NCBI GenBank assembly: GCA_013180625.2
Contig: SNVD02006942.1
Location: forward strand, 744,001 to 808,000
Length of the DNA: 64,000 nt
From: Boswellia sacra
Lineage: Eukaryota; Streptophyta; Magnoliopsida; Sapindales; Burseraceae
Direction: 5' to 3'
Shown: piece by piece, positions 10,001-58,026 of the stretch
Position numbering within the stretch: position 1 is the first letter of the stretch
How the letters are laid out: every line of letters begins with the position of its first letter
Notes under the pieces: model-generated
Told to the model about the DNA's origin: nothing
What the model saw: the letters and a program-made list of their open reading frames with translations, nothing else
Databases searched by the model: none
Made by a program: the position numbers and the translations under genes

Positions 10001-13000
10001 CGGGTTTGGGAAGAATAATGGATTTGGCCCAAAGACTAGAAATCAAAAACTCGGCCCTTAAGAGTTATAAAGCGGGTGGGCCTTTTGGGGAACGGAGGAC
10101 TGTGGCCCAACCCGTTACAGCCCAAATCAAAAACCCATCGACGACCCAGAATCATTCCTCAACATTTCCTAACTCGGGTGCGAGGAAAGGTGACATGCAT
10201 TTCCTGACAAACCGGAGATGATAGAGCTTTCGATGAATTCCGTGGTGGGCCTCACTTCTCCCAAAACGATTAAGCTGGTAGGAACAGTGGGAACAGAGGA
10301 GGTCATCGTTCTGGTCGACCCGGGGGCTACGCATAATTTTATTTCAAGGCAATTGGTGCAGAAATTGAATTTACCCTTTGACAAGACAGAAGGGTACGGG
10401 ATTCTCCTGGGCACTGGAAGGCCGATCAAAGGTGAAGGGGTGTGTAAGGGAGTTGCTCTGTCTCTGCAAGGTCTGGAGGTTGTGGAAGACTACCTTCCCC
10501 TTGAGCTTGGTGGATCGGATTTGGTGTTGGGCATGCAGTGGCTGGAGAATTTAGGTGTAATCCGGGTTGATTGCAAGGCACTGACAATGGAATTTGTAGT
10601 GGATGGTCGCAAGGTAACTCTTCAGGGGGACCCTAGTTTGTGCAGAACTCAAGTGAAATTGAAGAATCTGTTCAAGGCTGTTAAAGGAGGGGGACAAGGC
10701 ATCTTGTTAGAGTTGAGTACTCTGTCGGTTTCTAATACATGGGGTGAACCAGGAATTCCAGCAGATATAGGCCGATTGCTAGATACTTATGATTCGGTAT
10801 TTCATTTACCCGCCGGGTTGCCTCCGGAACGAAACCAAGACCATGCCATTATTCTCAAGGAAGGAAGTCAGCCAATTTCTGTTCGCCCTTACCGATATCC
10901 CCACATCCAGAAGGCTGAAATAGAACATTTAGTCCAGGAAATGCTTGCAGCTGGCATAATTCGTCCTAGCAATAGTCCATTTTCTAGTCCTGTCTTGTTG
11001 GTCAAAAAGAAAGATGGAAGCTGGCGGTTTTGTGTGGATTACAGAGCTTTCAACCAAGTTACAGTGCCGGACAAATTTCCAATCCTAGTGATCGATGAAT
11101 TATTAGATGAACTCCACGGGGCCACCATATTTTCGAAACTGGACCTAAAATCTGGCTATCATTTAATCAGAATTAGACAGGAGGACATCCACAAGACAGC
11201 TTTTCGCACCCATGACGGCCATTACGAATTTTTGGTTATGCCTTTTGGCCTCACCAACGCCCATTCTACGTTCCAATCCCTGATGAATGAAATTTTCCGC
11301 CCTTTCTTGCGAAAGTTCATCCTTGTTTTCTTTGATGACATTTTGGTCTACAGTGTAAGTTTGGCGGACCACGTGAAGCACCTTGAAGTGGTATTACAAA
11401 CTCTGGCAGTACATCAATTGTATGCTAATAGGAAGAAGTGTCTGTTTGCTCAGATTGAATTAGACTATCTGGGCCATGTCATTTCTCCAGAAGGGGTTTC
11501 AGTGGATCAATCAAAGATCCAGGTTATGTTGCAGTGGCCTAGGCCTCGGAATTTGAGGGAACTGAGAGGCTTCCTTGGCCTTACTGATTATTACAGAAAA
11601 TTCGTCAAGAATTATGGTAATATAGCTCAACCTCTTACTGAACAATTAAAGAAGGATAGATTCGGTTGGAATGCAGCAGCTGAGGAAGCTTTCAATCGCT
11701 TAAAACATGCTATGACTGAAGTTCCAGTTCTAGCTCTCCCAGATTTTTCTAAGCCATTTCTCCTCAACATTGATGCCTCTGGTGTGGGACTAGGGGCGGT
11801 TCTAATGCAAGATCAGCGACCCATAGCCTATTTTAGTCATATACTTCCTCCTAGTCAGCGGCTTAAATCTGTCTATGAGCGAGAACTAATGGCGGTAGTC
11901 TTGGCTATCCAAAAATGGCGGCCCTAACTCTTGGGTCACAAATTCATTGTACAGACTGATCAAAAAAGCTTGAAATACCTGTTAGAGCAGCGCCTCATCA
12001 GTGCTGAGCACCAGAAGTGGGTAACAAAACTGTTGGGGTTTGATTTCGAGATTCAGTATAAGCCGGGATTGGAAAATAAAGCTGCTGATGCCCTCTCCCG
12101 CCATCCTGAATTTGGTGCTATAGCCATCTCTCCTTCTTTCGACTTCCAAGAGATACAGCAAGCAGTGAATGATGATGCTGAGTTGAGCAAGATTAAAGCA
12201 GATATCCTGGCGGGAAACTCAGTTAAGGAGGGTTTTATAGTTGAGCACCAGAAGTGGGTAACAAAACTGTTGGGGTTTGATTTCGAGATTCAGTATAAGC
12301 CAGGATTGGAAAATAAAGCTGCTGATGCCCTCTCCCGCCATCCTGAATTTGGTGCTATAGCCATCTCTCCTTCTTTCGACTTCCAAGAGATACAGCAAGT
12401 AGTGAATGATGATGCTGAGTTGAGCAAGATTAAAGTAGATATCCTGGCGGGAAACTCAGTTAAGGAGGGTTTTACAGTAATCCATGGCGCATTATTGTAC
12501 AAGGGTCGAATTGTATTGAGCTAGCACTCTTCTCTAATTCCCAAGCTGCTCAAAGAATTTCATGACAGCTCCATCGGTGGCCATTCTGGGTTGCTTAAAA
12601 CTACTCAGCGGATTATCAAGGAGTTTTATTGGGTGGGAATGAAGAAAACCATCAAACGGTATGTGGAAGCTTGCCCAGTGTGCCAACAGAACAAGTATCT
12701 GGCTATGTCTCCAACAGGATTATTACAACCCTTACCACTGCCTACACAAGTCTGGGAGGACCTCACCATGGACTTCATTGAAGGATTACCGAAATCTGAA
12801 GGATTTGATACGATTCTAGTGGTGGTTGACCGGGTGAGTAAATTTGTCAATTTCATAGCTCTTAGGCATCCCTGCAATGCCCCAACTGTGGCTGCAGCAT
12901 TCCTCAAGGAAGTGGTGCGATTACATGGGATTCCTCGGTCCATTGTCACGGATAGAGACCGGATTTTTCTTAGCTTATTCTGGACTGAATTGTTCAAGCT

Positions 13001-15431
13001 TCAGGGCACCACTCTCAAAAGAAGCACTGCATACCATCTCCAATCAGATGGGCAATCCGAAGTTGTGAACCGCTGCCTTGAAACATACCTTCGTTACTTT
13101 GTATCCAACAAACCAAGACAATGGATCAAATGGCTCCCTTGGGCGGAATACTGGTATAACACTTCCTTTCACTCCTCTGCCAAATGTACACCATTTAAAA
13201 TTTTGTATGGCCGTGACCCTCCTCCATTGGTTCGCTATGGGCACGATTCCACCACTGTCTCCACTGTTGAACTTCTCTTGGAGGAAAGAGATGCTATATT
13301 AGAGGAGCTGAAACAGAATTTGAGCACAACACAAGCCAGGATGAAAAGTATGGCAGATGGTAAACGAAGGGAACTTCAATTCAGAGTAGGTGATCTGGTT
13401 TACCTCAAATTACAGCCATATAAGCAGCGGTCTTTGGCTCAACGTCGAAATGAAAAACTCAGCCCTCGCTACTATGGTCCTTTTCCGGTGGAAGCCAAAG
13501 TCGGTCAGGTTGCTTACAAACTTCACTTGCCAGACCACTCTCTTGTTCACCCTGTATTCCATGTGTCCCAACTGAAACCGGCAGTCAGTTCCGCAGACCA
13601 TGTCTCCCCTGTCATTCCTCCTCAACTTGATTCTTCCATGGAATTGAAAGTCGAACCTGCCAACATCCTCAATGTTCGACAGAAACATGGCCCTTCAGGA
13701 CTTCTCACCGAGGTGCTGGTCCAATGGAAGGACTTACCGGCTTTTGAAGCTACTTGGGAGCAGTTCGATTTGATTAATAATCAGTTTCCTGCTTTCCACC
13801 TTGAGGACAAGGTGCTGGCTTGGGCGGGGGGTAATGATAGGCCACCTATTAAGTTCACATATACTAGGCGTAACAAGAAATAAGGGGAGGGGCAAGGTTG
13901 TTATTTGAAGTGTTAGCGGGGGTGGTCAGATTTACTTTTTAGTTGCTTTTTGTTTGTTTTTTGTTTTGCTTTATTCGGGGTGTAGGCCGCGGAGTTAGTT
14001 ACCCCGATTTTAGGAAAGAAAAGGAGAGGACAGGCTGGTATATAAGGTGAGAGAAGAGTAGAGTAGGGGTGAAGAATTTTCTGTTATTTTGGTAAGACCA
14101 CTGAGTCTTTGGGAGAGCTTGCAGGCCTCTCGAACTGCCTGCTATTTACTTAATTCAATACAGCAATTTATCCAGAAATTCCCTTTCCTTGCTCTAGTTT
14201 CCTCTGTTTGTTTGTAAAACTCAATTACTAGTGTGTGAGTGTGTTGATCCAGTCAGTGTATAAGGAAGAGTTCTATCAGCTCCTTTTGTGACTGAAAACA
14301 ACAAAAAACCTAAATGATTGTGGTGAACTTTAATTGAATTGAGCTTTCAGTTTCATTCATGCAAGCTTTTGATTTGTTACAGTTCTTTTGATGTAAGGGA
14401 AATTTTATTACAGGTTTGGGAGGTGAAAGCTGCAGACTTGACTATTAGCCCTGTTCACCGTGCAGCAATTGGCATTGTGGATCCTGATAAGGTTGAATTT
14501 TTGTTGGACACTTGAATTCTTACAGATTTTTGTTTCACCTCCTTTTAGTTTTAGATTTGTTTTATATTCCAACTTTGTTTTCTTTCGGAATATATGGATT
14601 CTAAACTCATTCCACAAATCATGGAACGCATGTTCAGGCTACTAGCCACGACATGATATCGCTTTTTACCTTTTAACACTTAACCATTAGTCGCAACTTT
14701 TCCCCTCATGATTCCAGGCCACTGCATGTTAAAATGCCTGCGACTTCAATTGAAGCCAACCTGCAATTGCTTGAGATAGAAAATTGTGGTATTGATTAGT
14801 TTGGTGCATGCTGGTAGGGATTCTCTAAGCTGCTTTTGTGAGTTTAAGTATTAAGGTCATTGGCATCCACTTTTCCAGTCCTTAGTGTGTTACAGATTGT
14901 TTGCATTAGATGGAATCTGATGTTCTCATCTTATGGTTTGGTTGCTGTATGCACTGACAGTTGGAGCTGGTTCTGTGTTAGATTGTGAGGGTTGGCTGGA
15001 GTTGGCTCTAACTCCAGCCCAAAACTGTATGTGCGCATACACATTTTAAATAATGAAATCAGCTTTTGTCTGTACGCTTCCATCTCACTTAAATTTTCTT
15101 CTATGAGAAGGGCATTTCGCTTCGGTTTCCTCGTCTGATTCGTGTTAGGGAAGATAAGACTCCAGAGCAAGCATCATCATCTGATCAGGTGAAGATCAAT
15201 GCCAGTTGGTTGATAATTTGTTCAGATGATCTAAAAGATGACATGGAGGAAAAAATGATGGAATATTTGAAATGTTTATTCATGTTTTCCTTGTTCGGAA
15301 CCTATAATATATGCCCCGTTTGTTTTTTTACTTCTCATTTCTGTTATTCGCGCTTATTCCAGGTTGCGGAGATGTATACAGCTCAAAAGATCAATCACTC
15401 CAATAAACAAGATGACAATGAAGATGATTGA
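1045..15431 (+). CDS. LIG1: DNA ligase 1 (ATP-dependent), 17 exons, 785 aa
   Basis: ATP-dependent DNA ligase that seals Okazaki fragments and repair nicks. Exons read from splice sites and protein continuity: 1045-1815, 2071-2187, 2725-2826, 2905-3021, 3598-3828, 3913-4007, 4879-4966, 5818-5949, 6251-6363, 7211-7312, 7391-7452, 7628-7699, 7828-7901, 8006-8062, 14414-14491, 15111-15188, 15363-15431. All phases join into 785 aa, close to the plant family length. The nucleotidyltransferase motif KYDGER is at residues 439-444 with the catalytic Lys at 439; later conserved stretches include EGLIIKTL and [10 protein letters not shown]. There are two candidate starts: Met1 in a weak context (T at -3) followed by an Arg/Ser-rich presequence, and Met54 (base 1204) beginning [12 protein letters not shown] with A at -3. 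Arabidopsis LIG1 is known to use two starts for mitochondrial and nuclear forms. Intron 14 (8063-14413) is swollen by a retrotransposon. Very confident in identity; exon edges are predicted by eye. Confidence 0.95.
4105..4385. repeat. polypurine/polypyrimidine imperfect inverted repeat in LIG1 intron 6
   Basis: A purine-rich left arm (around 4118-4200, with GGAAGGGGAGGGGAGGG) is followed by a pyrimidine-rich right arm (around 4300-4370, with CCCTCCAATTTTCC). The right arm is roughly the reverse complement of the left, as in a degenerate MITE or foldback. No target duplication was identified. Confidence 0.35.
7474..7519. repeat. (AC)n(GC)n(AC)n(AT)n alternating purine-pyrimidine microsatellite
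   Basis: A continuous run of CA and CG dinucleotides ending in TATATA, within LIG1 intron 11. Alternating purine-pyrimidine DNA of this kind can adopt Z-form and is a polymorphic marker. Confidence 0.85.
8418..8437. repeat. (CA)n microsatellite
   Basis: A short CA dinucleotide run in LIG1 intron 14, upstream of the retrotransposon. Confidence 0.8.
8858..8862. other. target site duplication, left copy (GCTCC)
   Basis: GCTCC directly precedes the 5' LTR and is repeated exactly at 14279-14283 after the 3' LTR. This is the 5-bp duplication expected for a Ty3/Gypsy integrase. Confidence 0.95.
8863..9306 (+). repeat. 5' LTR of the chromovirus-type element
   Basis: 444 bp, starting TGATAGG and ending CTATCA. 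It contains a TATA box (TATATAA at 9067-9073) followed by a purine-rich likely transcription start region. It differs from the 3' LTR at five sites, all transitions. Confidence 0.95.
9311..9322 (+). other. primer binding site (tRNA-Met type)
   Basis: TGGTATCAGAGC lies four bases after the 5' LTR and matches the usual initiator tRNA-Met primer site of plant chromoviruses and Copia elements. Confidence 0.9.
9338..10217 (+). pseudogene. gag remnant of the chromovirus-type element
   Basis: The frame opens at an ATG shortly after the primer site and encodes a capsid-like gag region (WVYRVEHFF and [10 protein letters not shown] are recognisable). It is broken by TAG at 9449-9451, TGA at 9854-9856 and a frame change between about 9985 and 10005, after which [10 protein letters not shown] continues in another frame until a stop at 10219-10221. 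The CCHC zinc knuckle expected near the C terminus is absent, probably by deletion shortly before the protease. Confidence 0.85.
12005..12478 (+). repeat. 237-bp tandem duplication inside pol
   Basis: Two adjacent copies, 12005-12241 and 12242-12478, differ at about four positions (near 1.7%). The unit is exactly 79 codons, so the frame is kept. It covers the end of RNase H (motif [12 protein letters not shown]) and the linker before integrase. Confidence 0.95.
13822..13834 (+). other. polypurine tract of the chromovirus-type element
   Basis: A G-rich run (GGGCGGGGGGTAA) immediately before the 3' LTR, at the expected place for plus-strand priming. It contains one C. Confidence 0.75.
13835..14278 (+). 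repeat. 3' LTR of the chromovirus-type element
   Basis: 444 bp, same ends as the 5' LTR, followed by target duplication GCTCC at 14279-14283. Its TATA box (14039-14045) points at LIG1 exons 15-17. Confidence 0.95.
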
Positions 15432-45219: not shown

Positions 45220-45780
45220 TCAACATGTATGTATCGAGTGTCGAGTGGACAATGTCGAGTGGTCTGATATCGAGTGTCCGATGATGCATCCGATATGATT
45301 CGACAATATGTGTCGAGTGGTCAGACACTCGATGTCTTTGAAAATAGTCTTACATCGAGTGTCGGATGATGCATCTGACACGACTCGATAATATGTGTCG
45401 AATGTCGAGTGGACAGTGTTGAGTATCCGATTCATCATCCGACACTTTATGTTTTCGAAAATAGTCTGATATCGAATGTCGGATGATGCATATGACACGA
45501 CTCAACAATATGTGTCGAGTGTCGAGTGGACAGTGTCGAGTGTCCGATTCATCATTCGACACTGGATGTCTTGAAATATAGTATGATATCGAGTGTCAGA
45601 TGATACATCCGACACGACTCGATAATATGTGTCGAGTGTCGAGTGTCGGATTATCGATGTCTTTGAAAATAGTCTTATATCGAGTGTCGGATGATGCATC
45701 CGACACGACTCGACAATATGTGTCAAGTGTCGAGAGACGACTCGACACTTACATCTCGAGTGTTGAGTGGATCCGATAGA
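45220..45780. repeat. palindromic tandem repeat, about 117-bp period, inside the hAT-like element
   Basis: Five units share the word AATATGTGTCRAG, with occurrences of ATATG at 45306, 45391, 45508, 45625 and 45716 (periods 85, 117, 117, 91). Each unit has an inverted repeat; at 45684-45706 the arms GTGTCGGATG and CATCCGACAC are perfect 10-bp complements around ATG. Confidence 0.85.
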
Positions 45781-45902: not shown

Positions 45903-45907
45903 GCACC
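45903..45907. other. target site duplication of the Athila-like element, left copy (GCACC)
   Basis: GCACC precedes the 5' LTR and is repeated at 55093-55097 after the 3' LTR. It lies within the right terminal repeat of the hAT-like element, which shows the order of insertion. Confidence 0.93.
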
Positions 45908-47319
45908 TGATAAGTGTCTATTTATATATCATTTTCATATCAATTCGTCCATGTTTCTTTGCTATATTCCTTGGTATTTTTATGTTTTTGTGTGGTTTTG
46001 ATGTTTGTAGGAGTTTTGGAGCAACTTGCACAAAAATGGAGTAAAACCCTTCATTTTCACCTCTGCTAGTCAACCATCTTCTCGGATTTAATTGTATTGA
46101 TATACAATGAACCCGATGACATATCATATACCGTTGAAAAGCTCTCGAAGTCTACTTTTTGGAGAAATTTACGGTTTATGAATCCATTCAGTGTACCGAA
46201 AGTTGTAATCAAAACAGTGTGAGAAGTGTAGAAATGTAATTCCACACATCACTGTAGCATGTATAATACGGGACACTGTAGCACGTTACTGTAGCAGAGT
46301 ATTTAAACACATTTTAGGGTTTTATTTTCATAACTTGAAGAGGGGAGAACGTGGTGGAGGCTTCAGCTCTGGAATTCTTTCATCTCTTGGAGTTCTTGAA
46401 GGAGAAAGGAAGCTTGGAAAGAGGAAGAACTACAATCCAAAGAGAATTACATCAAATTTGCTAAGTTTTTCCCTTCCCTTTCATTTTCTGGAATGTCTCC
46501 ATGTTGTATTGTATTTACCACGTTCTTAAACATGTGTAACTGAATCTGAATTGGTTGAGGGTGATTTCAAAGCCCCTGATATGGTTTTTGTAGTTGATTG
46601 TGCAAGAAGTTGTTATCCAATTCTCTAATTGAAGTTGCTTGTATTTTCCCATGTCTAATGCTTATGATTGCTTGCTGGATTGTATTTGGGTGGCCAACTG
46701 AATATAATCTGGATATTGTCTATTGCTAGACTAGAAATCTTGATCCGTAATTGTCTTGAATTTCTAATCCTTAGTAGCAAAATTGTGATCAGAGATTGCA
46801 ATTGGAGAATACAACCTAAGTTAAATAATCCGAGCTTGTGTGTTTATTGCTTAGATCAACCTATCTTTCTTATCGTAATGCATCCATTGAATTAAATTTA
46901 GAGAGCTTGTTCTAGGTTGTTTAATGGATAGAGATTAAATAAAGAGCCTGTTTTATTTAACAACAAAGTAAGGAAAGATTGGGATAACAGAGCTTGTTGT
47001 TATCTACGGTTGATAATTTCAATGGTGTAATTGGATGACAATTCTGTGATTAATTCGCAAATCCATATCTTGTGGTAGAGAATAATCCCTTAACCAGATT
47101 TCTTTCATTGATTTCTCTCAATTGATTTAACTTTGCATTGTATTATTCTTCATTTGCTTTCGTATTTGAGTTTAGTTAATCAATCAACAAAACCCCCCAT
47201 TTATTTGTTTTCGCTTTCGAATAACAAATTCAATTAGAATCAATCCTCGTGGGAACGATATCTTACTCATCACTTTATTACTTGTGCGACTAGTATACTT
47301 GCTAGTTTCGAACGCATCA
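45908..47319 (+). repeat. 5' LTR of the Athila-like element
   Basis: 1412 bp, TG...CA ends. It matches 53693-55092 almost throughout. Short open frames inside it occur in both copies and look like chance. Confidence 0.95.
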
Positions 47320-47325
47320 AGTTTT

Positions 47326-47343
47326 TGGCGCCGTTGCCGGGGA
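47326..47343 (+). other. primer binding site (tRNA-Asp type)
   Basis: TGGCGCCGTTGCCGGGGA, six bases after the 5' LTR, is the primer site typical of Athila/Tat lineage Ty3/Gypsy elements. Confidence 0.9.
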
Positions 47344-47432
47344 TTGATTTTCTAATCGATTTGTTATTTTGTTTTCATTGTTGATTCATATTTTCTTTGT
47401 TTTTCTTTTCTGATTGTTTGTGTTTAGACAAC

Positions 47433-48320
47433 ATGGCAGTAAACTTCTATCAATTCAGTAGCGGATTTGAGCCACAAGTACCATGGAGAGTAAATGAGGT
47501 AAGCACTCCGAACATTGAACAACAACTTTCTGAGCTAACCTCTCTTGTGGAAAACATGGCTGTAGGAGATATGCAAAAATCTTATGAATGTGGGATATAT
47601 TCTACGATGGAGCATCCAATCGACATGTATCCAACTTTACAAGAAGAATATATGGAACAAGCCAATGCCATGGGTGGATTTCCAGGACAAACGAGGCAAT
47701 GGTATGATCCTTTCTCTAGCACTTACAATGCTGGATGGGAAGATCAACATAATTTCAGTTACTGGAATCATCAACCAATCACTCCAAATGTGATACCAAA
47801 TCGGCCACAAGGTTTCAATCAACCTAGAGTGCAGCAACCTTTTCAAATGCAACCACCACCAATGCCACATCCAGCACCGCAACCAGCTTCACAAAACTCA
47901 GGTATGTCTCTCCAGGACATTGTTAATGCACTTGCCACTAACACAATGCAATTCCAGCAGGAAACTGGGGCAAGTATCCAAAACCTGGCAAATCAAATGG
48001 GACAATTGGCCACTAGCATGAGCAAATTCGAGGGCCAAGGCTCAGAAGAATTATCTTGTCAAACGATGATCAATCCAAGAGAGAATTCTTGTGCGATAAC
48101 TTTGCAAAATGAAGAGCAATTAGATGTCCTGCCAAAGAAATCACAAACTGATGAAGGAGATGACACCACTTCCACCATGAACAAAACACTGACTTCTCAG
48201 GTAAATCCTATAACTCCCATTCCTTCATATGTTTCTCCTCCACTTTTTCCTAGTAGATTTGCACAATCGAGGAGAAACAAGAACAAGAAATCCTGGAAAC
48301 TTCTCACAAAATCGAGGTAA
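47433..48320 (+). pseudogene. gag C-terminal remnant of the Athila-like element
   Basis: Open frame of about 295 codons from the ATG at 47433, very close to the primer site. It corresponds to the C-terminal third of Athila gag: GGFPGQTRQWYDPFSSTYN, a Gln/Pro/Asn-rich middle, and LATNTMQFQQETGASIQNL. The N-terminal capsid part is missing. The zinc knuckle (about residues 52-66) is damaged: two of the expected Cys ligands read as Tyr. The frame ends in TAA at 48318-48320, and the protease continues in a different frame overlapping from about 48272. Confidence 0.82.
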
Positions 48321-49003
48321 ATATACCACTTCTGGATGCTATTGAGCAAGTACCTCGTTGTACAAAATTTCTCAAGGAGTTATGCACCAACAAGAGAAAG
48401 TTGAAGGGAAATGAGAAAGTAAGTGTGGGGGAAAATGTTTCAGCTGTATTGCAAAGAAAAATTCCTCCAAAATGCAAAGATCCAGGTACGTTCATCATTC
48501 CATGCACCATTGGTAATACCAAGTTTGAAAGAGCTATATTAGATTTAGGAGCATCTATTAATGTCATGCCATATTCTATTTATGCTTCTTTAAATCTTGG
48601 ACCTTTTGCGAAAACTGGTATTACCATTCAGTTTGCTGATCATTTTAATACATATCGCAAAAGAGTTGTGGAAGATGTGCTTGTGCAGGTGAATCAATTG
48701 GTTTTTCCAGCAGACTTCTATGTCCTTAAAATAGAGGATGAGACATCTCCTAATCCAACACCGATTCTTTTAGGGAGGCCATTCTCGAAAACTGCTAGAA
48801 TCAAGATTGATGTTCATTATGGCACTTTGACCATAGAGTTTGATGGCAAGGTGATATGTTTTAATATTTTTGAGGAAATGAGGTACTCTAATGACTTACA
48901 TTCTGTTTTTGCAGTTGACGTTATTGATTATTTGCCACAACAATGTTTTGAGTTAACTCGCAAGAATGGAGTGGATGTTGCTATTAGTGAACACATAAGA
49001 TAG
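48272..49003 (+). pseudogene. retroviral-type aspartic protease remnant (Athila-like)
   Basis: The frame is open from about 48272; the first internal ATG is at 48401. It contains the Athila protease stretch, with the active-site motif DLGASINVMP (Leu in place of the usual Ser/Thr, as is common in this lineage), then PADFYVLKIED and PILLGRPFSKTARIKIDVH. It ends at TAG 49001-49003. A frame difference separates it from gag. Confidence 0.85.
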
Positions 49004-49035
49004 AAAGTTTCAAAGAACCAAGAAAGCTGATACAA

Positions 49036-49449
49036 GTGTCTAAAGAAGTGGAGGAAGCTGTGACAAGCTTGGATGAGACTATAGCTATCACCACAAATAG
49101 GTATGATGTTTCGTACATTGAATTGCCTTTATCTAATGAGAAACTTCTTCCTTCTGTGATGAAAGTCAATACCTTGGAGCTTAAGTCACTTCCAGATCAT
49201 TTGAATTATGGATTCTTGGGTGAGAATGATACTTTGCGAGTTACAATGGAAATGGGCCTTGCACGAATACAAGAAGATAAACTCGTCCGAATACTTACAG
49301 ATCACAAAATAGCTATTGAGTGGACAATTGTTGAAATCCAAGGCCCATCCATATGCATTGACCGTATCTTGTTAGAAGAGGGATCCAAGCCCATTAGAGA
49401 AGCACAACAGAAATTGGATCCTCCCATGATGGAACCAACGTCGGGCTGA
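49036..49449 (+). pseudogene. pol linker remnant, truncated before reverse transcriptase
   Basis: 137 codons in a third frame. LELKSLPDHLNYGFLGEND and CIDRILLEEGSKPIREAQQK match the linker that leads into Athila reverse transcriptase. After KLDPPM the similarity stops and the frame ends at TGA; no reverse transcriptase, RNase H or integrase follows. The bases after the stop (AAGCGCTTATTGGGAGGCAA and context) resemble the segment that normally follows pol in such elements, so an internal deletion is likely. Confidence 0.8.
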
Positions 49450-49896
49450 GGACGTTAAACCAAGCGCTTATTGGGAGGCAACCCAATGTTTTTGAAAAAT
49501 AAAAAAAAAAAGAAGAAAAGAAAAATAAAATGAGGTAATAATGATCGATTTTTGTGTCTCGAGGAGATTCCTTTCGTAGGCCATCAAATTGATCAGGTTT
49601 TATCTCTCTTTGCCATCTGTCTTATTTGTTTTTATATTTTTTTACTTGTTTTTTGACTTTTGTTTGCTATTGTGTTGTTATCTCTTTTATGTGTCTTTAG
49701 TTTCGTTTCTGCTCTTTTCTTTTCCTTCCTTTTGTTTAATTTGATTATTCCGTACTTCGAATTCATTTGTGCAACAGCTTGAGGAAACATCCAAACGGGA
49801 GCTGAAGTCATTGCTCGAAGGTTTGAAACGTGCATATCTGGGAGAAGAACAAACCCGATCGCATTATCGGTAATATCTCTCCTTTTCTTCTCTTCA

Positions 49897-50451
49897 ATGG
49901 ATGCTGATATCTTTCTATCGAACCTTTGTAAATATTTCCCTTCACTTCCTCAAAATGCTGTGTTTAAAATTTATAAAGTACGGATGACTAGACTTTGGGC
50001 ATTGATGCTCCTAAATGTGCCTGCTGATATCCGATGGCTTATCGAAGCCAAGGTGAGATTGTCCGGTGAGCCGGACATTAATCTCGCAAAATACATGCCT
50101 GGTCTAGGAAAGAGCTACTACGCCAAGAGGCGAAGAGCGAAAAGGTTACAAGTATGTTATAAATGTGCTAGATGGAATTGTAACCAGACTTGTCGTTCAT
50201 TAGGTTTTGCGTCCAGGAATAGAGAAGATAAACTTTCATTTATTAAGAATGGTTTGAGTAATGAGTCGCTGGATAATGTTTTGTTAACTCTCGAGTCACA
50301 TTCTTGTGGACTTGTTCAGCGTGAATTGCTTAATCTATGGACACAATTTCGTGATGAATTGCAGTGTTATAGTCTAGGGAATCTGACTAAAAACGACCCT
50401 GTTTGCCAGTTTATAAGAAAACTGGATGGGAAGCAAATCCCCGACTCATAG
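49897..50451 (+). CDS. unknown retrotransposon-borne protein, basic patch plus four-Cys cluster, 184 aa
   Basis: Intact 184-codon ORF in the space between the pol deletion and the LOG gene. I do not recognise the family. Residues 77-83 are strongly basic (KRRRAKR), directly followed by C87-x2-C90-x4-C95-x3-C99, a plausible zinc-binding cluster; the C-terminal half is Leu/Ser-rich and probably helical. The N-terminal half has hydrophobic stretches (LWALMLLNVPADIRWL) but no signal peptide. The basic patch next to a Cys cluster suggests nucleic-acid binding or nuclear entry, which is inference only. It might be a derived env-position ORF, a replacement nucleocapsid-like protein, or a second captured host fragment. 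Confidence 0.6.
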   Translation: MDADIFLSNLCKYFPSLPQNAVFKIYKVRMTRLWALMLLNVPADIRWLIEAKVRLSGEPDINLAKYMPGLGKSYYAKRRRAKRLQVCYKCARWNCNQTCRSLGFASRNREDKLSFIKNGLSNESLDNVLLTLESHSCGLVQRELLNLWTQFRDELQCYSLGNLTKNDPVCQFIRKLDGKQIPDS

Positions 50452-50678
50452 AAGGCGTTTCAGCCGTTACTGGACGTAAAACCAGAGGAAGATGTGAGCC
50501 ACAATCACAACTACTTGTATATTTGAATGTGTGTTGTTGTTGTAGAATTTTTTTTTTCTTGTTTCGTTTGATCTGATTATCAATGTTGTTTTTGTGTTGT
50601 TGTTGTTTGTTGATTTTGTTTGTTTTAATTTCAAGTTTTCTTTTTGACAAACCATATGACTACCCTATGGCATAAGTA

Positions 50679-50931
50679 CACGTGGGAGACAAGTGTGGAG
50701 GTTTTGTCAACCTCCACCGAAAGTGGATCTCTATTTTTTATGCTTCACGTGGGAGACAAGTGTGGGGGTTTTGTCAACCCCCGCCGAAAGTGTATCTCCA
50801 TTTTCCATGCTTCACGTGGGAGACAAGTGTGTAGGTTTTGTCAAACCTCGCCGAAAGCATATCTCATTTTTTCAAATCTTGGGGCGATAAATCTGCATCG
50901 AGCAACCCCCACCGAAAGTATGTCCCCATGT
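50679..50931 (+). repeat. 67-bp tandem array with G-boxes and hairpins upstream of LOG
   Basis: Three units start at 50679, 50746 and 50813 (exact 67-bp period), and a shortened fourth runs to about 50931. Each full unit begins CACGTGGGAGACAAGTGT, so it contains a G-box (CACGTG). Each then has an inverted repeat around a loop, followed by CCGAAAG. Unit 1 pairs 50695-50703 with 50709-50717 (9 bp). Unit 2 pairs 50762-50770 with 50776-50784, with an A-T to G-C double change and one G-U type pair. Unit 3 keeps a 6-bp stem (50833-50838 with 50843-50848). Confidence 0.9.
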
Positions 50932-50957
50932 GTCAAAATTTGAGAGTTTTATGGGTG

Positions 50958-50965
50958 TATATATA
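50958..50965 (+). promoter_or_regulatory. TATA-like box upstream of the LOG ORF
   Basis: TATATATA about 98 bp before the LOG start and 140 bp after the third G-box repeat. The position fits a core promoter for LOG inside the element. Confidence 0.45.
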
Positions 50966-51062
50966 CATTCTGCATATTTTCATATGTCATTCCATAACCT
51001 GTCTTGCAATTGAAAAGCATAATATCTAACGTGTCTTACACAAGATTAGAGCACTTGTAGAA

Positions 51063-51713
51063 ATGGAGAAAACACCAATTCGGCGATTCCGCAATATATG
51101 CGTATTTTGCGGATCGCAATTTGGTAAAGATGGAGAGTTTACCACAGCAGCTCTTGATCTTGGTAGGACACTAGCTGCGAGGGATATTAATTTGATTTAT
51201 GGAGGGGGTAGTCTTGGGTTAATGGGGTGTGTGTCGACAGCTGCATCCCTAGGAGGGAGCAAAGTTCTCGGCATTATCCCTAAACCATTAGCTGTACGAG
51301 ATATCGTAGGCAACACAATCGGGAAGAGTTACAAGTTCTCTAGCATGCATGAGCGTATTGCACATATGGTTGTTAAGTCCGATGCATTTATAGCTTTGCC
51401 CGGTGGTTATGGTACATTAGAGGAGATATTTCAAATCACCTCTTGGGCACAGCTAAACATCCATCGGAAACCCATTGGTTTGTTAAATGTTAATAATTTT
51501 TTTGATGGTTTGTTGTCCTTTCTTGATCAAGCTGTAGAAAAAAATTTCATCTCACCGTCAGCAAGGCAAATGCTGGTTACAGCTTCAACTGCAGGAGAGT
51601 TAATTGACAAACTACAAGAATTCGTCTATTCACCTGATCCAACAATGGCTCGGATAAATTGGTTTGGAGAAGGCAACAAAAGGCGTCAACTGGATTTAAC
51701 CCTCCATCTGTAA
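51063..51713 (+). CDS. LOG-type cytokinin riboside 5'-monophosphate phosphoribohydrolase, intronless, inside an LTR retrotransposon
   Basis: 216-aa protein of the lysine-decarboxylase-like LOG family, which removes ribose 5'-phosphate from cytokinin nucleotides to release the active free base in one step, usually in cytosol and nucleus. Features: ICVFCGS at 12-18, YGGGSLGLMG at 46-55, MHER at 95-98, the family signature PGGYGTLEE at 113-121, and SWAQLNIHRKPIGLLN after it; length is normal for plant LOGs. Differences: the Lys usually following MHxR is Ile99, and the tail ends LDLTLHL, which fits an LxLxL (EAR-like) pattern. Plant LOG genes normally have several introns; this copy has none, as expected of a retrotransposed mRNA. 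The start has a good context (G at -3 and +4). It lies between the LTRs of the Athila-like element, downstream of a G-box/hairpin array and a TATA-like box. Enzyme activity is unproven. Confidence 0.9.
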   Translation: MEKTPIRRFRNICVFCGSQFGKDGEFTTAALDLGRTLAARDINLIYGGGSLGLMGCVSTAASLGGSKVLGIIPKPLAVRDIVGNTIGKSYKFSSMHERIAHMVVKSDAFIALPGGYGTLEEIFQITSWAQLNIHRKPIGLLNVNNFFDGLLSFLDQAVEKNFISPSARQMLVTASTAGELIDKLQEFVYSPDPTMARINWFGEGNKRRQLDLTLHL

Positions 51714-53680
51714 TCTCTATTTGCTGGTTTGCTTCGTTTTTGTTTGCTTTCTTTTTAGTGTGTTTATTTGAGATTTTTCATGTCGTTTCTTTTGAGCTTT
51801 TTCAGGTTATTTCTTTCGTCCCAGGTAATATTTTCTAATCTCGGTTTTTAGAGTGGTGGCTTAAAAAGTTCAAGTTCTCTTGAAACGCATTCTGGATCTC
51901 TTCAATCCATAATGGCTGAATAAGGAGGCTAACTTCTAAACTTTTTAGACCCATTCTAACTAACTTGTTTTTGTTTGCTGACTTGTTGAACTTTGTTATT
52001 TTATGAGTGAGTTTAGTTTTGCGTAATTTAGAGTTGTTATGTGTTTTTATCTTTATCAGTTTTGATTTAAAAAAAAAACAATTGTGGAAAAACCTGAGAA
52101 TGGCAGAATATGGGGTTTCTTTAACCCTTGAAACGCATTCTCTCTAAATAAATCTGTAGTTTGTTTATTTCATGTTGTTTGAAGTGTCTTGTTTCTTGTT
52201 TTGTTCTTTCATAATAAAGGTATATAGGCTGGAAACCTTAAGTCTGCGGGCTACTGGTCCTAAGGATTGTTGAAATATACAATCTTGACTCAGGTGTAAC
52301 AACGCCACGTACCTCTTTTCTTGCATTTTGTGGGTCGATGATAAGATAATGATTGAATTAAGAATAACTCTTGGAAAATGATAAATGATGCATGGATCTG
52401 TGTGCTTGAAATGTTTATTGGTTTTCGCTTTGCTTTTGATTCCTTGCGCAACATTGAGCACTGAGCTATTATCACTGAGTTATTTGTTCACTTAGAGAAA
52501 GTTTATGTAATTTAAATGTTTCTTCAGATTTCAATGAATTCTAGAACTTGTTTGATGGTCACTCGAGGCGAAATCCTAGACTGTGCAACATTGGGGAAAT
52601 GATTTAGGCCATCTTTGGACCGTTTGAGCCTTAATAGCCAACCTTAACTGAAATTGATCCCTAGTTACCCCTTTGAGCCTTTGTAAGCCTTTTTCTTTGT
52701 TAACTCACTAAAAGATTTCCTAACCTCAAATGAATTTGTTCCAAACAGTTTATCCCTTACCTATGAGCATGTAGATCATTCACAATTAAATTTTGAGCTA
52801 TGTTCTGGTTTTGGGAAGTTAGAGGAGGTTGGGATGTGTCATGAGCAATACAAGTGAGTTCTATTGTGTTTAAAAAAAAAAAAGAAAAACAGAAAAAAAA
52901 ACCAATCTGTACTTATCGTCCACATACTTACACATTGAGGACAATGTGTTGTTTAAGTGTGGGGGAGGGGAAGTGTAATAAAAAAAAAAAAAAAAGAAAA
53001 AAAAGAACAAAAGAAGAAGAATAAGAGATCTATACCCTTAAGTGTTCTTAAAAAGAATGAAACAACAAAGTGTGGGGGTGTAGTTTTCTTTTGTTTTCTG
53101 CAAAAAAAAAAAAAAAAAAGATTGAGTGTTCTAAATAAGTTTGGGGGAGTAACCTGGTGAATTGAAATGAAGTTGTGTTATAGGGTTGAGCTCTACATAG
53201 TCTTGAATGATTTATGTGTTTGTGGGTGATTTGAGCCAAATTATTATCCTTTATCATACCTTCACCCAAGCCAAACGTTACAAGCTTAATAAAGTCCTAC
53301 TTGATCCTTGGTGTTGTGCATGTCTACATTAGTGGAGAGTGACTTGAAAAGCAGGCCTATGGAGTTCATTTATACACACATCTTCAATATTAAATATGAT
53401 TCATTTTTATGCATAAACTCATCCGGGTTACAAGTGATTAGGTGAGAATGGCTCTACACACACACACTTGAGGAATTGAAGTGAAGCGAAACTAATTTTT
53501 GAGATAAAATTCTTGATCAAGTGCATTATTTTGAAGTTTTCCTTGGGTTATAATTAAGTACAATCTTTGAGGCCTATTTGCAAGATGAAGCATTTGTGTG
53601 TTTTAATTTTTTGTTGATTCTGTTTCGGTTTAGTTTTATTTCATATTGTCGTAGTTGCTCGAGGACTAGCAAAGTCTAAG
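51714..53680 (+). other. non-coding 3' tail of the Athila-like element
   Basis: About 2 kb between LOG and the polypurine tract with no supported ORF. It has several A-rich runs and repeated G-rich words (GTGTGGGGG-like at about 52958, 53068 and 53138), which resemble the terminal polypurine tract. CTTGAAACGCATTCT occurs twice (about 51879 and 52127), a hint of old internal duplication. Confidence 0.6.
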
Positions 53681-53692
53681 TGTGGGGGAATT
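53681..53692 (+). other. polypurine tract of the Athila-like element
   Basis: TGTGGGGGAATT directly before the 3' LTR, at the expected position for plus-strand priming. Confidence 0.8.
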
Positions 53693-55092
53693 TGATAAGT
53701 GTCTATTTATATATCATTTTCATATCAATTCGTCCATGTTTCTTTGCTATATTCCTTGGTATTTTTATGTTTTTGTGTGGTTTTGATGTTTGTAGGAGTT
53801 TTGGAGCAACTTGCACAAAAATGGAGTAAAACCCTTCATTTTCACCTCTGCTAGTCAACCATCTTCTCGGATTTAATTGTATTGATATACAATGAACCCG
53901 ATGACATATCATATACCGTTGAAAAGCTCTCGAAGTCTACTTTTTGGAGAAATTTACGGTTTATGAATCCATTCAGTGTACCGAAAGTTGTAATCAAAAC
54001 AGTGTAGAAGTGTAGAAATGTAATTCCACACATCACTGTAGCATGTATAATACGGGACACTGTAGCACGTTACTGTAGCAGAGTATTTAAACACATTTTA
54101 GGGTTTTATTTTCATAACTTGAAGAGGGGAGAACGTGGTGGAGGCTGCAGCTCTGGAATTCTTTCATCTCTTGGAGTTCTTGAAGGAGAAAGGAAGCTTG
54201 GAAAGAGGAAGAACTACAATCCAAAGAGAATTACATCAAATTTGCTAAGTTTTTCCCTTCCCTTTCATTTTCTGGAATGTCTCCATGTTGTATTGTATTT
54301 ACCACGTTCTTAAACATGTGTAACTGAATCTGAATTGGTTGAGGGTGATTTCAAAGCCCCTGATATGGTTTTTGTAAGTTGATTGTGCAAGAAGTTGTTA
54401 TCCAATTCTCTAATTGAAGTTGCTTGTATTTTCCCATGTCTAATGCTTATGATTGCTTGCTGGATTGTATTTGGGTGGCCAACTGAATATAATCTGGATA
54501 TTGTCTATTGCTAGACTAGAAATCTTGATCCGTAATTGTCTTGAATTTCTAATCATTAGTAGCAAAATTGTGATCAGAGATTGCAATTGGAGAATACAAC
54601 CTAAGTTAAATAATCCGAGCTTGTGTGTTTATTGCTTAGATCAACCTATCTTTCTTATCATAATGCATCCATTGAATTAAATTTAGAGAGCTTGTTCTAG
54701 GTTGTTTAATGGATAGAGATTAAATAAAGAGCCTGTTTTATTTAACAACAAAGTAAGGAAAGATTGGGATAACAGAGCTTGTTGTTATCTACGGTTGATA
54801 ATTTCAATGGTGTAATTGGATGACAATTCTGATTAATTCGCAAATCCATATCTTGTGGTAGAGAATAATCCCTTAACCAGATTTCTCTCATTGATTTTTT
54901 TAACTTTGCATTGTGTTATTCTTCATTTGCATTATATTTCATTTAGTTAATCAATCAACAAAACCCCCCCATTTATTCTGTTTTCGCTTTCGAATAACAA
55001 ATTCAATTAGAATCAATCCTCGTGGGAACGATATCTTACTCATCACTTTATTACTTGTGCGACTAGTATACTTGCTAGTTTCGAACGCATCA
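53693..55092 (+). repeat. 3' LTR of the Athila-like element
   Basis: 1400 bp, starting TGATAAGTGTC and ending AACGCATCA, followed by target duplication GCACC. It differs from the 5' LTR by a few substitutions and small indels, concentrated in its last 200 bases. Confidence 0.95.
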
Positions 55093-55109
55093 GCACCCCT
55101 AATTTCACT

Positions 55110-56134: not shown

Positions 56135-57895
56135 TTAAAGTACTGTTCTCTCTGCTTTCTCTCTAAATTTCTTATATATATCACTCTTGTAAAATTCTCG
56201 AGTCCTAATCACCAATATGAATGAAACAATAGCTCCAAAGAATGTGACAGCCGCTAAGATGACAAAGGGCATTCTGTAACAGCGAGTCCCAATGCATGTC
56301 AATTCTTTCACTGATGATCTATTCAAACCTTTCTCTGCAAGTTCCTTCAGAGCTTGATGATCATAGAGCATCCCCGTGACCTTCACATTGAGCACATAAG
56401 ACCCAAGAGGGCTTGCCAATTGCCCACAATTGAACAATGTGGCGTAGTACTTCAGGCCAAAAAGCTCGGAAATGATAGTAAAAAGCAAAGGCAATTGTGC
56501 ACCAAATGAGAATCCAATGATCACAGAAGCCACGTAGACAGAACCTGGGACTGGAAAGGCGATCAAAAGGTAGCCAATGCATGACAATAAAAGGACCAAA
56601 GTCATCATAAGTGGCCTTGGCGTTTGATACTTTACAAGTAAATTTTCAGACACAAATCCGGCAAAGACCCTTCCGAAGTAGTTCCAAATGCTGACAAGTG
56701 ATACAAAGGATTTAATGGTGTGATGTGGGTAGCCAAGTGACTCTCCAATTTGGCCCAAGTTGTCCACGGCTGTTAAGCTTGACCCAAGCCCCCCAAATGT
56801 TGCAATAAACAATATCAACATGTCAATGCTTAGAAGTGCTTGCAAGATTGTGTAGTCTTCTCCCCTTGGTGGCTTGTCACAAATGGTGAGAAAACAAGAT
56901 TTAGGAGGCTCTGGCTCTATTTCTGGTGGTGCTGAATCATCAGATTGCGTTGGTGATTCAATTTTGGTTTCAGCTTCTGGTGGTATTTCAACACTTATCT
57001 CACTAGGAGGCTGGTTTTTGAGTTTCCAAAGCGTTAACTCCTCCTTGATAGCTATAGCTAATGGGACAAAGAGAAGGCCAACAGCGCCAGTGGCACTTGC
57101 TGCATAGGCTGCTTTGTTGAAAGACACTAGTTTTTGAACTATTGTCATTGTCATGAGAAACAATGCTAAAGCCAGTGATGCATAAAGGAATTGATAAAAA
57201 ATTTTAACTTCATTTGTTTGCGGAACAGCCTTAAGTGTCCTGATTGTGTACACAAACACCACCGATATTGCGGCCGGGAGCCAACCAATTAGAAGAATAA
57301 GAGATTTGGAGTCATTGCCATACAGGGCCAAGTAAACTTGCGTCAAAATAGCCCCACTAAGCCCTACAAAACCCTTCAAGAGACCTATCACGATGCCTCT
57401 GCTTTCCGGGAAGTTCTTAACACAAGTGGCAAAAGCTCCGGTGTTTGCAAAGTTCTGAGAATTGGCTCCTATGCAGATGTATAAACACATATGCCAAACT
57501 TTAGGCTTGGCAATCCTAGCGGTGACAGCGAGCCAGATCATGAAATATCCGGTGAAGTTCATGGCTGCACCAACTAGTAACACAAACCAAGTTGGGGTTA
57601 CCTCGGCAAGGAGGCCAGAGAGTACCCCAATATTGGCTCCAAAATCTTTGAAAAAGCCTATGAGATTTAGCGTTGTTTGATCATATCCAAGGGACTCTTT
57701 TATGTCTTTGGAATATGTACCAAAGAGATAAGTGGCACCAGCTCCTGCCATGATCAAGAAGGATGCAAAAACTTGGAACCATCTCCCTTTGACCATATAT
57801 ATCATGAAATGAAACCATTCTGTAACCCCACCTCCACCTCCACCTCCACGAGCTCCGCCATTCATGGTGGCGGTGGTTGGTGATGCCTTAACCAT
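56135..57895 (-). CDS. nodulin-like / MFS membrane protein, NFD4-type, 586 aa
   Basis: Single-exon ORF for a 12-helix-type transporter of the plant nodulin-like/major facilitator family (NUCLEAR FUSION DEFECTIVE 4-like). The start is the first in-frame ATG (MVKASPTT); the frame is open further upstream but has no ATG. Order: a Gly-rich N terminus; the nodulin-like domain from GRWFQVFASFLIMAGAGATY, with SLGYDQTTLNLIGFFKDFGANIG, ICIGANSQNFANTGA and NFPESRGIVIGLLKGFVGLS; a hydrophilic acidic, Pro-rich linker (SEISVEIPPEAETKIES onward) between the two halves; then a second half with FGGLGSSLTAVDNLGQIGESL and WNYFGRVFAGF. The C terminus is cytosolic and basic. The substrate is unknown for this clade. 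Family assignment is firm; a transport role is inferred. Confidence 0.93.
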   Translation of the reverse strand: MVKASPTTATMNGGARGGGGGGGVTEWFHFMIYMVKGRWFQVFASFLIMAGAGATYLFGTYSKDIKESLGYDQTTLNLIGFFKDFGANIGVLSGLLAEVTPTWFVLLVGAAMNFTGYFMIWLAVTARIAKPKVWHMCLYICIGANSQNFANTGAFATCVKNFPESRGIVIGLLKGFVGLSGAILTQVYLALYGNDSKSLILLIGWLPAAISVVFVYTIRTLKAVPQTNEVKIFYQFLYASLALALFLMTMTIVQKLVSFNKAAYAASATGAVGLLFVPLAIAIKEELTLWKLKNQPPSEISVEIPPEAETKIESPTQSDDSAPPEIEPEPPKSCFLTICDKPPRGEDYTILQALLSIDMLILFIATFGGLGSSLTAVDNLGQIGESLGYPHHTIKSFVSLVSIWNYFGRVFAGFVSENLLVKYQTPRPLMMTLVLLLSCIGYLLIAFPVPGSVYVASVIIGFSFGAQLPLLFTIISELFGLKYYATLFNCGQLASPLGSYVLNVKVTGMLYDHQALKELAEKGLNRSSVKELTCIGTRCYRMPFVILAAVTFFGAIVSFILVIRTREFYKSDIYKKFREKAERTVL

Positions 57896-57909
57896 TCTCT
57901 GCCTTCCTA

Positions 57910-58026
57910 TTACAATGTTAGTGTAAGAGAAAGCAAGCCAAAGAGGGGTAGAAGGGGTACTTTTGGGCTCTGTATGCAAATGTTTTGGAAGAGATCAGAA
58001 TCAAAGAAGAGAAATGCTAATAACAT
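57910..58026 (-). promoter_or_regulatory. possible upstream ORF of the MFS gene
   Basis: A 38-codon frame beginning at an ATG (58026-58024) and ending 14 bases before the MFS start. It is hydrophobic (MLLAFLFF). If included in the 5' UTR it could lower translation; the transcription start is not known. Confidence 0.35.

Follow-up and report, generated by a model that had tools for sequence, protein, structure and literature searches.

An open reading frame (ORF) of the LOG type lying between the long terminal repeats (LTRs) of a retrotransposon raises the question of whether the gene is a chance passenger or a working part of the element, and, in the latter case, what it may do there. The locus lies in the window, that is, the whole 64,000-nucleotide stretch of Boswellia sacra DNA analysed here, to which all coordinates refer unless another source is named. 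The reading that we prefer, with a probability of about 0.6, is that of a non-autonomous, Athila-like Ty3/gypsy copy bearing a 3' cassette of two genes, a nucleic-acid-binding protein (NABP) and LOG, which would function as proposed below.

Architecture and age of the element

The LTR retrotransposon occupies 9.2 kb (45908-55092), with the NABP and LOG ORFs inside it. Its 5' LTR (45908-47319, plus strand) and 3' LTR (53693-55092, plus strand, preceded by a G-rich tract) are 98.1% identical across 1415 aligned columns in blastn, have TG...CA ends and are flanked by identical copies of the target-site duplication GCACC (45903-45907 and 55093-55097, unstranded); paired LTRs, terminal dinucleotides and duplication together identify an LTR retrotransposon. 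In a MAFFT alignment, the LTRs differ at 17 of 1397 columns (K2P = 0.012), while blastn, which places the gaps differently, counted 9 mismatches. At plant substitution rates of 6.5e-9 to 1.3e-8 per site per year, the insertion would be roughly 0.5-0.9 Myr old. Immediately left of the element, degenerate tandem repeats with units of 91-117 bp occupy 45262-45734, and about 1 kb from its 3' end lies a Nodulin-like/NFD4-type transporter gene (56135-57979, minus strand).

Directly after the 5' LTR follows TGGCGCCGTTGCCGGGGA (47320-47345, plus strand), presumed from its position alone to be the primer-binding region, and which we take to resemble that of Athila/Tat elements. Three further ORFs precede the cassette, all on the plus strand. 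The first (47397-48320) is a gag-like remnant that lacks a capsid domain and has no Pfam match; the second (48401-49003) is protease-like, with an Asp_protease_2 score of 23.6 bits, just below the cut-off of 24.3; the third (49036-49449) is taken as the N-terminal remnant of reverse transcriptase (RT), being 73% identical to L061:5934-6338, a stretch directly before the RT domain of another copy, in which RVT_1 starts at L061:6595. The gag and protease remnants that the first-pass annotation had placed upstream of LOG are thus present as ORFs, but with a sub-threshold Pfam score in one case and no match in the other. Since the protease frame spans 248 residues in the window copy and reaches as much as 721 aa without interruption in other copies, gag-protease is broken here. 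A Pfam scan of five ORFs of the window element detected neither an RT nor an integrase domain.

The NABP ORF (49897-50451, plus strand; 184 aa) contains a basic stretch and a four-cysteine motif. A spacer with a 67-bp tandem repeat in 2.9 copies (50679-50872, plus strand) separates it from the LOG-type ORF (51063-51713, plus strand).

Elsewhere in the window, a second LTR retrotransposon (8863-14278) has 444-bp LTRs that are 98.9% identical, encodes RT, RNase H and integrase, and gives a weak chromodomain match; a 237-bp tandem duplication (12005-12478; 98% identical, 79 codons) lies in its pol region between its two long ORFs.

A repeated family with pol-bearing relatives

The assembly searched comprises 638.6 Mb in 7431 contigs. 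It holds at least 150 LOG copies at 94-100% identity (14773 first-look candidates) and at least 150 NABP copies at 98-100% identity (13985 candidates), and the earlier view that a captured LOG has spread within an LTR element is borne out. Internal stops are absent from 142 of the 150 LOG matches listed and from 148 of the 150 NABP matches listed, both lists being ranked by score and hence biased toward intact copies. NABP sequence was present in 30/30 loci sampled by LOG (in L027 as a short piece only) and LOG sequence in 30/30 loci sampled by NABP; the window copy belongs to both samples, which share two copies (contigs C1363 and C3802). In the NABP-sampled loci, by comparison, LOG is mostly split over frames or carries stops. 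Two simple accounts can be set aside, a one-off insertion by the copy numbers of both genes and a lone capture of LOG by the NABP sequence adjoining it throughout the LOG sample.

Upstream of NABP, 27 of the 30 NABP-sampled loci have the deleted form with the RT remnant, and three (L035, L039 and L040) have the C-terminus of an integrase, as does L063, a wider stretch around L002. Contig C1363 (L061 plus L040) displays the order gag-protease-RT-RNase H-integrase with the extra ORFs 3' of the integrase, several of its frames being broken; before NABP-LOG it encodes gag (PF03732), RT (PF00078), RNase H and an integrase (rve 61.4 bits; H2C2 23.9, below the cut-off of 25.5). Inspection by eye of the integrase and protease matches listed placed none of them clearly next to a listed NABP; the pol-bearing partners were seen instead in the retrieved loci (L035, L039, L040, L063 and C1363).

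Comparison with L061 locates two deletions. Internal positions 1-108 of the window element align with L061 as far as 3484, and those from 112 onwards with L061 from 4262; the PF03732 gag domain of L061 sits in the missing stretch. The second deletion removes everything from RT to integrase, with a junction near internal 2115-2118 (window ~49434-49437) that cuts the RT remnant ORF. The window element is a deletion derivative that has lost both the gag capsid domain and the region from RT to integrase, and in which the NABP-LOG cassette was kept. L062, a further example of the deleted form, is bounded by a pair of LTRs belonging to this family (97.9% identical) and borders another copy; no target duplication was seen at its LTR ends. 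The integrase C-terminus, which matches Rhamnella protein P0188 at 69%, and the layout suggest an Athila-like Ty3/gypsy element, a label drawn partly from general knowledge.

Relatives occur outside this genome as well. Named LOG relatives among the best 120 hits come from Xanthoceras, Reevesia, Diplodiscus, Populus, Pterospermum, Melia and Rehmannia, and named NABP relatives among the matches listed come from Populus, Xanthoceras, Rhamnella, Gossypium, Citrus and Orobanche; among the matches listed, full-length frames of both at 50-73% identity are found in several eudicots. LOG and NABP relatives lie on contigs of equal size (P0010 and P0121 on 8723 bases, P0019 and P0154 on 2128, P0070 and P0186 on 2425), which hints that the two genes move as a pair in other genomes too, although equal length does not prove that they share a contig. 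In Rhamnella P0188, the integrase end runs into NABP, and in Gossypium P0234, NABP continues into a segment that shares 54% identity with LOG residues 157-184 (E 8.7e-07 in a two-protein comparison).

The LOG-type protein

The LOG ORF is a single uninterrupted frame of 216 aa that ends in KRRQLDLTLHL. It matches PF03641 at 5.9e-39 and contains PGGYGTLEE, an instance of PGGxGTxxE, and with both features it classes as a LOG phosphoribohydrolase; it matches Arabidopsis At2g37210 (PDB 2a33) at 1.7e-67 and is about 60% identical to plant LOGs by alignment. The first-pass annotation, which had described an open LOG frame with this signature between LTRs sharing a 5-bp duplication, is confirmed in that respect. 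Within 51305-51350, 56 of the 58 other locus rows (56 distinct copies) differ from the window copy by one extra and one missing base at two nearby places, and L055 has a larger insertion; the reading frame of the window LOG therefore departs from that of its relatives for about six codons immediately ahead of the MHER motif (GKSYKF, for example, versus GEELQV in P0010). The catalytic Arg and Glu fall outside this segment. The window ORF is open but has an altered segment, which we count against the preferred reading, and which also qualifies the earlier statement that the element had lost RT and integrase while keeping LOG and a second ORF open, otherwise upheld by the scan of its five ORFs.

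In CgLOG, according to the available text of PMC4979012, the catalytic pair is Arg99 and Glu122, and Lys100 and Glu125 are pocket residues named with the base and prenyl sites; Ala substitution of AMP-binding or catalytic residues nearly abolished activity, with the exception of S19A. The window LOG keeps the catalytic pair (Arg98 and Glu121) and, in the pocket, Met95, His96 and Trp128, while Lys is replaced by Ile99 and Glu by Gln124, leaving incomplete the Met, His, Lys, Glu and Trp set of the prenyl/base pocket in cytokinin-activating plant LOGs. Three protein homologue lists were used (the best 120 of 7837, 150 and 8000 hits). Element-type LOGs were defined as the 111 proteins of 205-235 aa among the best 120 hits, and the control comprised 120 host proteins of the LOG1/3 type only, a restriction that we count against the preferred reading. 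Both catalytic residues are retained in 101 of the 111, the pocket Lys in 9 and the pocket Glu in 8, versus 120/120 for each pocket residue in the hosts. The commonest replacement pairs at the Lys and Glu sites are Leu-His (35), Ile-Gln (33), Met-Gln (11) and Met-His (10).

The C-terminus differs as well: an LxLxL sequence lies within the last 12 residues of 94/111 element-type LOGs and a basic stretch precedes it in 95/111, whereas none of the 120 LOG1/3-type hosts has LxLxL in its last 20 residues or the basic stretch. The EAR motif, which recruits TOPLESS, has the form LxLxL, and the tail is a candidate for such a motif. Since 7 of the 9 Lys-bearing element-type rows lack the LxLxL end, the pocket change and the tail go together in most rows. 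In a quick tree of 62 rows, containing 38 element-type proteins, the window LOG and 19 of the 120 host proteins picked by the author, all 39 element-type rows grouped with two Xanthoceras pieces (SH-aLRT 92; starred level 95), and the 19 LOG1/3-type proteins with AtLOG8 were set apart from them (SH-aLRT 96); the program issued a long-branch warning, and the hosts in the tree were LOG1/3/4-like proteins and an AtLOG8 fragment. A Populus protein annotated 'LOGL10' (P0047) groups with the element-type LOGs.

Judged by these features, the LOG looks remodelled. The main rival for this part of the preferred reading is ordinary cytokinin activation, in which the element LOG would free the cytokinin base and more copies would mean more cytokinin wherever the element is active. 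The kept Arg98, Glu121 and PGGxGTxxE and the overall identity to plant LOGs speak for it, but the pocket replacements, in the window copy and across the element-type set versus hosts, and the loss of activity in the CgLOG substitutions make it doubtful. With Lys and Glu replaced in more than 90% of the 111 element-type LOGs, cytokinin activation is thus unproven, and the altered pocket weakens the earlier label 'cytokinin-activating'.

The second open reading frame

The second ORF, which the first-pass annotation had recognised as open and left unnamed, matches Pfam Viral_NABP PF05515 over 110 residues (E 1.7e-10, 41.7 bits, cut-off 23) and Carla_C4 PF01623 (E 3.3e-05, 24.2 bits, cut-off 20.9), and in an alignment of the window protein with 23 relatives, 18 of the 24 members match Viral_NABP and 19 Carla_C4. 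A basic, NLS-like KRRRAKR stands directly before a putative zinc motif (C87/C90/C95/C99), and a basic stretch likewise adjoins the zinc motif of carlavirus cysteine-rich proteins (PMC10141686, available text). The profiles and layout identify the ORF as a putative relative of the carlavirus nucleic-acid-binding/cysteine-rich protein. Viral relatives are reported to suppress silencing (PMC12172455 and PMC10141686, available text), and p12 of CVB is, in addition, a transcription factor that induces hyperplasia (PMC12172455, available text); by analogy, the element NABP may suppress silencing or act as a transcription factor.

The likeness could instead reflect convergence on a basic stretch plus zinc motif, or flow from retrotransposon to virus, in which case NABP would not be a virus gene. 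It is Pfam profiles that make the link to viruses, and two IMG/VR scans of viral contigs with NABP gave no confirmed relative, both of which we count against the preferred reading; moreover, the present data fit either direction of transfer. Convergence is opposed by the length and score of the Viral_NABP match, which covers more than a short zinc motif, and by its recurrence in 18 of the 24 aligned members, and we regard this alternative as rather unlikely. A PDB profile search with the NABP alignment returned zero matches at E up to 1.

The NABP stop codon is TAG in 58/58 locus rows. Beyond it, the frame at 50449-50523 (KAFQPLLDVKPEEDVSHNHNY...) agrees at 16 of 22 residues with the frame in which Gossypium P0234 continues, and 8 of the 10 variable sites past the stop are third codon positions. 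Readthrough of the stop is possible on these grounds, if unproven.

Selection on the two genes

LOG was judged in the NABP-sampled loci and NABP in the LOG-sampled loci, which avoids judging a gene in loci chosen for it. Besides the window copy, eight badly aligned or broken loci were left out of the variant counts (L042, L047, L054, L055 and L059 among the 29 NABP-sampled, and L015, L018 and L027 among the 29 LOG-sampled), 36 alignment columns flanking the compensated indels of LOG were excluded, and the null expectation was obtained by permuting the same base changes over the gene 2000 times. LOG variants found in at least two copies (24 loci) comprise 46 synonymous, 24 non-synonymous and 0 stop changes against 20.0 synonymous expected (omega-like 0.21; 0/2000 permutations as high), whereas single-copy variants comprise 23, 53 and 4, respectively, against 19.5 synonymous expected (omega-like 0.80). 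For NABP (26 loci), shared variants number 9 synonymous, 5 non-synonymous and 0 stop, with 3.8 synonymous expected (P 0.0025, omega-like 0.21), and single-copy variants 22, 52 and 4 (omega-like 0.83). Shared and single-copy classes differ by Fisher's test for LOG (p 7.8e-06) and NABP (p 0.013), and the synonymous excess of shared variants is not significant in either wrong frame or in the 50530-51050 spacer. The NABP shared variants are few (n = 14), which we count against the preferred reading, as we do the decay of many copies. Most loci are of the deleted class, but shared variants could partly stem from recombinational exchange with pol-bearing lineages, a further point against it, so that the selection signal cannot be assigned to the deleted class alone.

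These counts are most simply explained if each of the two proteins is important in the source lineages, with single insertions decaying afterwards. The first-pass annotation held that LOG would be a one-off passenger if other copies lacked it, or if all were broken with dN/dS near 1; what is seen is at least 150 copies and an omega-like value of 0.21. A neutral passenger, namely a captured LOG and a viral fragment open only because the insertion is young, would accord with the young LTRs, the near-neutral private variants, the many broken copies and the shifted segment of the window LOG, but it is improbable given the strongly synonymous inherited variants of both genes in the true frame only, the full-length relatives in several eudicots and the joint retention of the catalytic Arg and Glu in element-type LOGs.

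Across the NABP-sampled loci (L031-L060), diversity is about tenfold lower over NABP and the stretch past its stop (~49900-50500) and rises on both sides. Sampling by NABP score explains part of this dip, and recombination or selection may explain the rest.

Proposed role of the cassette

Under the preferred reading of a non-autonomous element with a functioning NABP-LOG cassette, pol-bearing relatives would mobilise the deleted derivative in trans. NABP would target nucleic acids inside the nucleus and most likely dampen RNA silencing, in the manner of its carlavirus relatives. The LOG descendant, by virtue of its catalytic pair, would still be a nucleotide N-glycosidase with a shifted substrate, and it may be nuclear through its basic and LxLxL tail; with both proteins at work, the host cell would be a more permissive environment for the element. 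We put forward, as a tentative extension in which our confidence is low, that a eudicot-wide retrotransposon lineage keeps a two-protein host-manipulation cassette, in which a virus-type nuclear silencing suppressor or transcription regulator is paired with a LOG re-tooled for a new nucleotide substrate and equipped with a nuclear, TOPLESS-recruiting tail, and which may be useful enough that a derivative without capsid, RT and integrase keeps both.

Both extra ORFs here have identifiable relatives and a purifying-selection signal, and one belongs to a viral counter-defence family. A standing question is made testable, namely whether suppressors of viral type and enzymes acting on hormones or nucleotides serve plant retrotransposons to pass silencing or alter the cells in which they replicate. 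Annotated LOG genes, such as the Populus 'LOGL10', may be retrotransposon genes with altered activity.

Comparison with known systems

LOG-bearing LTR elements are already known and are not new here, contrary to the first-pass annotation, which was aware of no described family. Steinbauerova et al. (2011) reportedly found two Athila-like elements with similarity to LOGL4, and are also said to have stated that extra ORFs mostly lack known relatives and any shown function. The extra ORFs of plant LTR retrotransposons are likewise described in the available text of PMC7264820 as mostly without known relatives or shown function. A YgdH/LOG domain is reported for consensus LTR retrotransposons from two Citrus species and, once a filter was switched off, from Populus trichocarpa, in line with Steinbauerova et al. 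2011, which that paper cites (PMC9289625, available text). These elements resemble that of the window in having a LOG-type coding sequence inside Ty3/gypsy, and their hosts, Citrus and Populus, also yield LOG or NABP relatives here; they differ in that no NABP partner, selection, pocket change or tail is described in the text available. Literature searches returned no report of a virus-type partner or selection signal in LOG-bearing elements, and full-text searches of the available collection of papers none linking the NABP family to retrotransposons; a paper surveying plant genomes for sequences of RNA viruses mentions a flexivirus replicase-like sequence, and the words 'nucleic acid binding' are absent from its available text (PMC3136472).

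Among elements with other cargo, orchid Gypsy elements with an AlkB RNA demethylase likewise carry a stable extra protein, thought to modify host or element RNA, but differ in domain and plant group (PMC9289625, available text). The extra ORF of sunflower Tekay elements resembles dsRNA-binding proteins and is proposed to modulate RNA silencing; these elements differ in belonging to the chromovirus lineage, and a viral family match is not described in the available text (PMC11728184). Carlavirus nucleic-acid-binding/cysteine-rich proteins share with NABP the Pfam families and the basic stretch beside the zinc motif (PMC10141686 and PMC12172455, available text). Unlike them, the element NABP is chromosomal, lies inside an LTR element and is repeated in the genome. 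Bs1 of maize contains host-derived coding sequence inside its LTRs; in contrast to Bs1, the LOG described here recurs in elements from many eudicots, with a signal of purifying selection.
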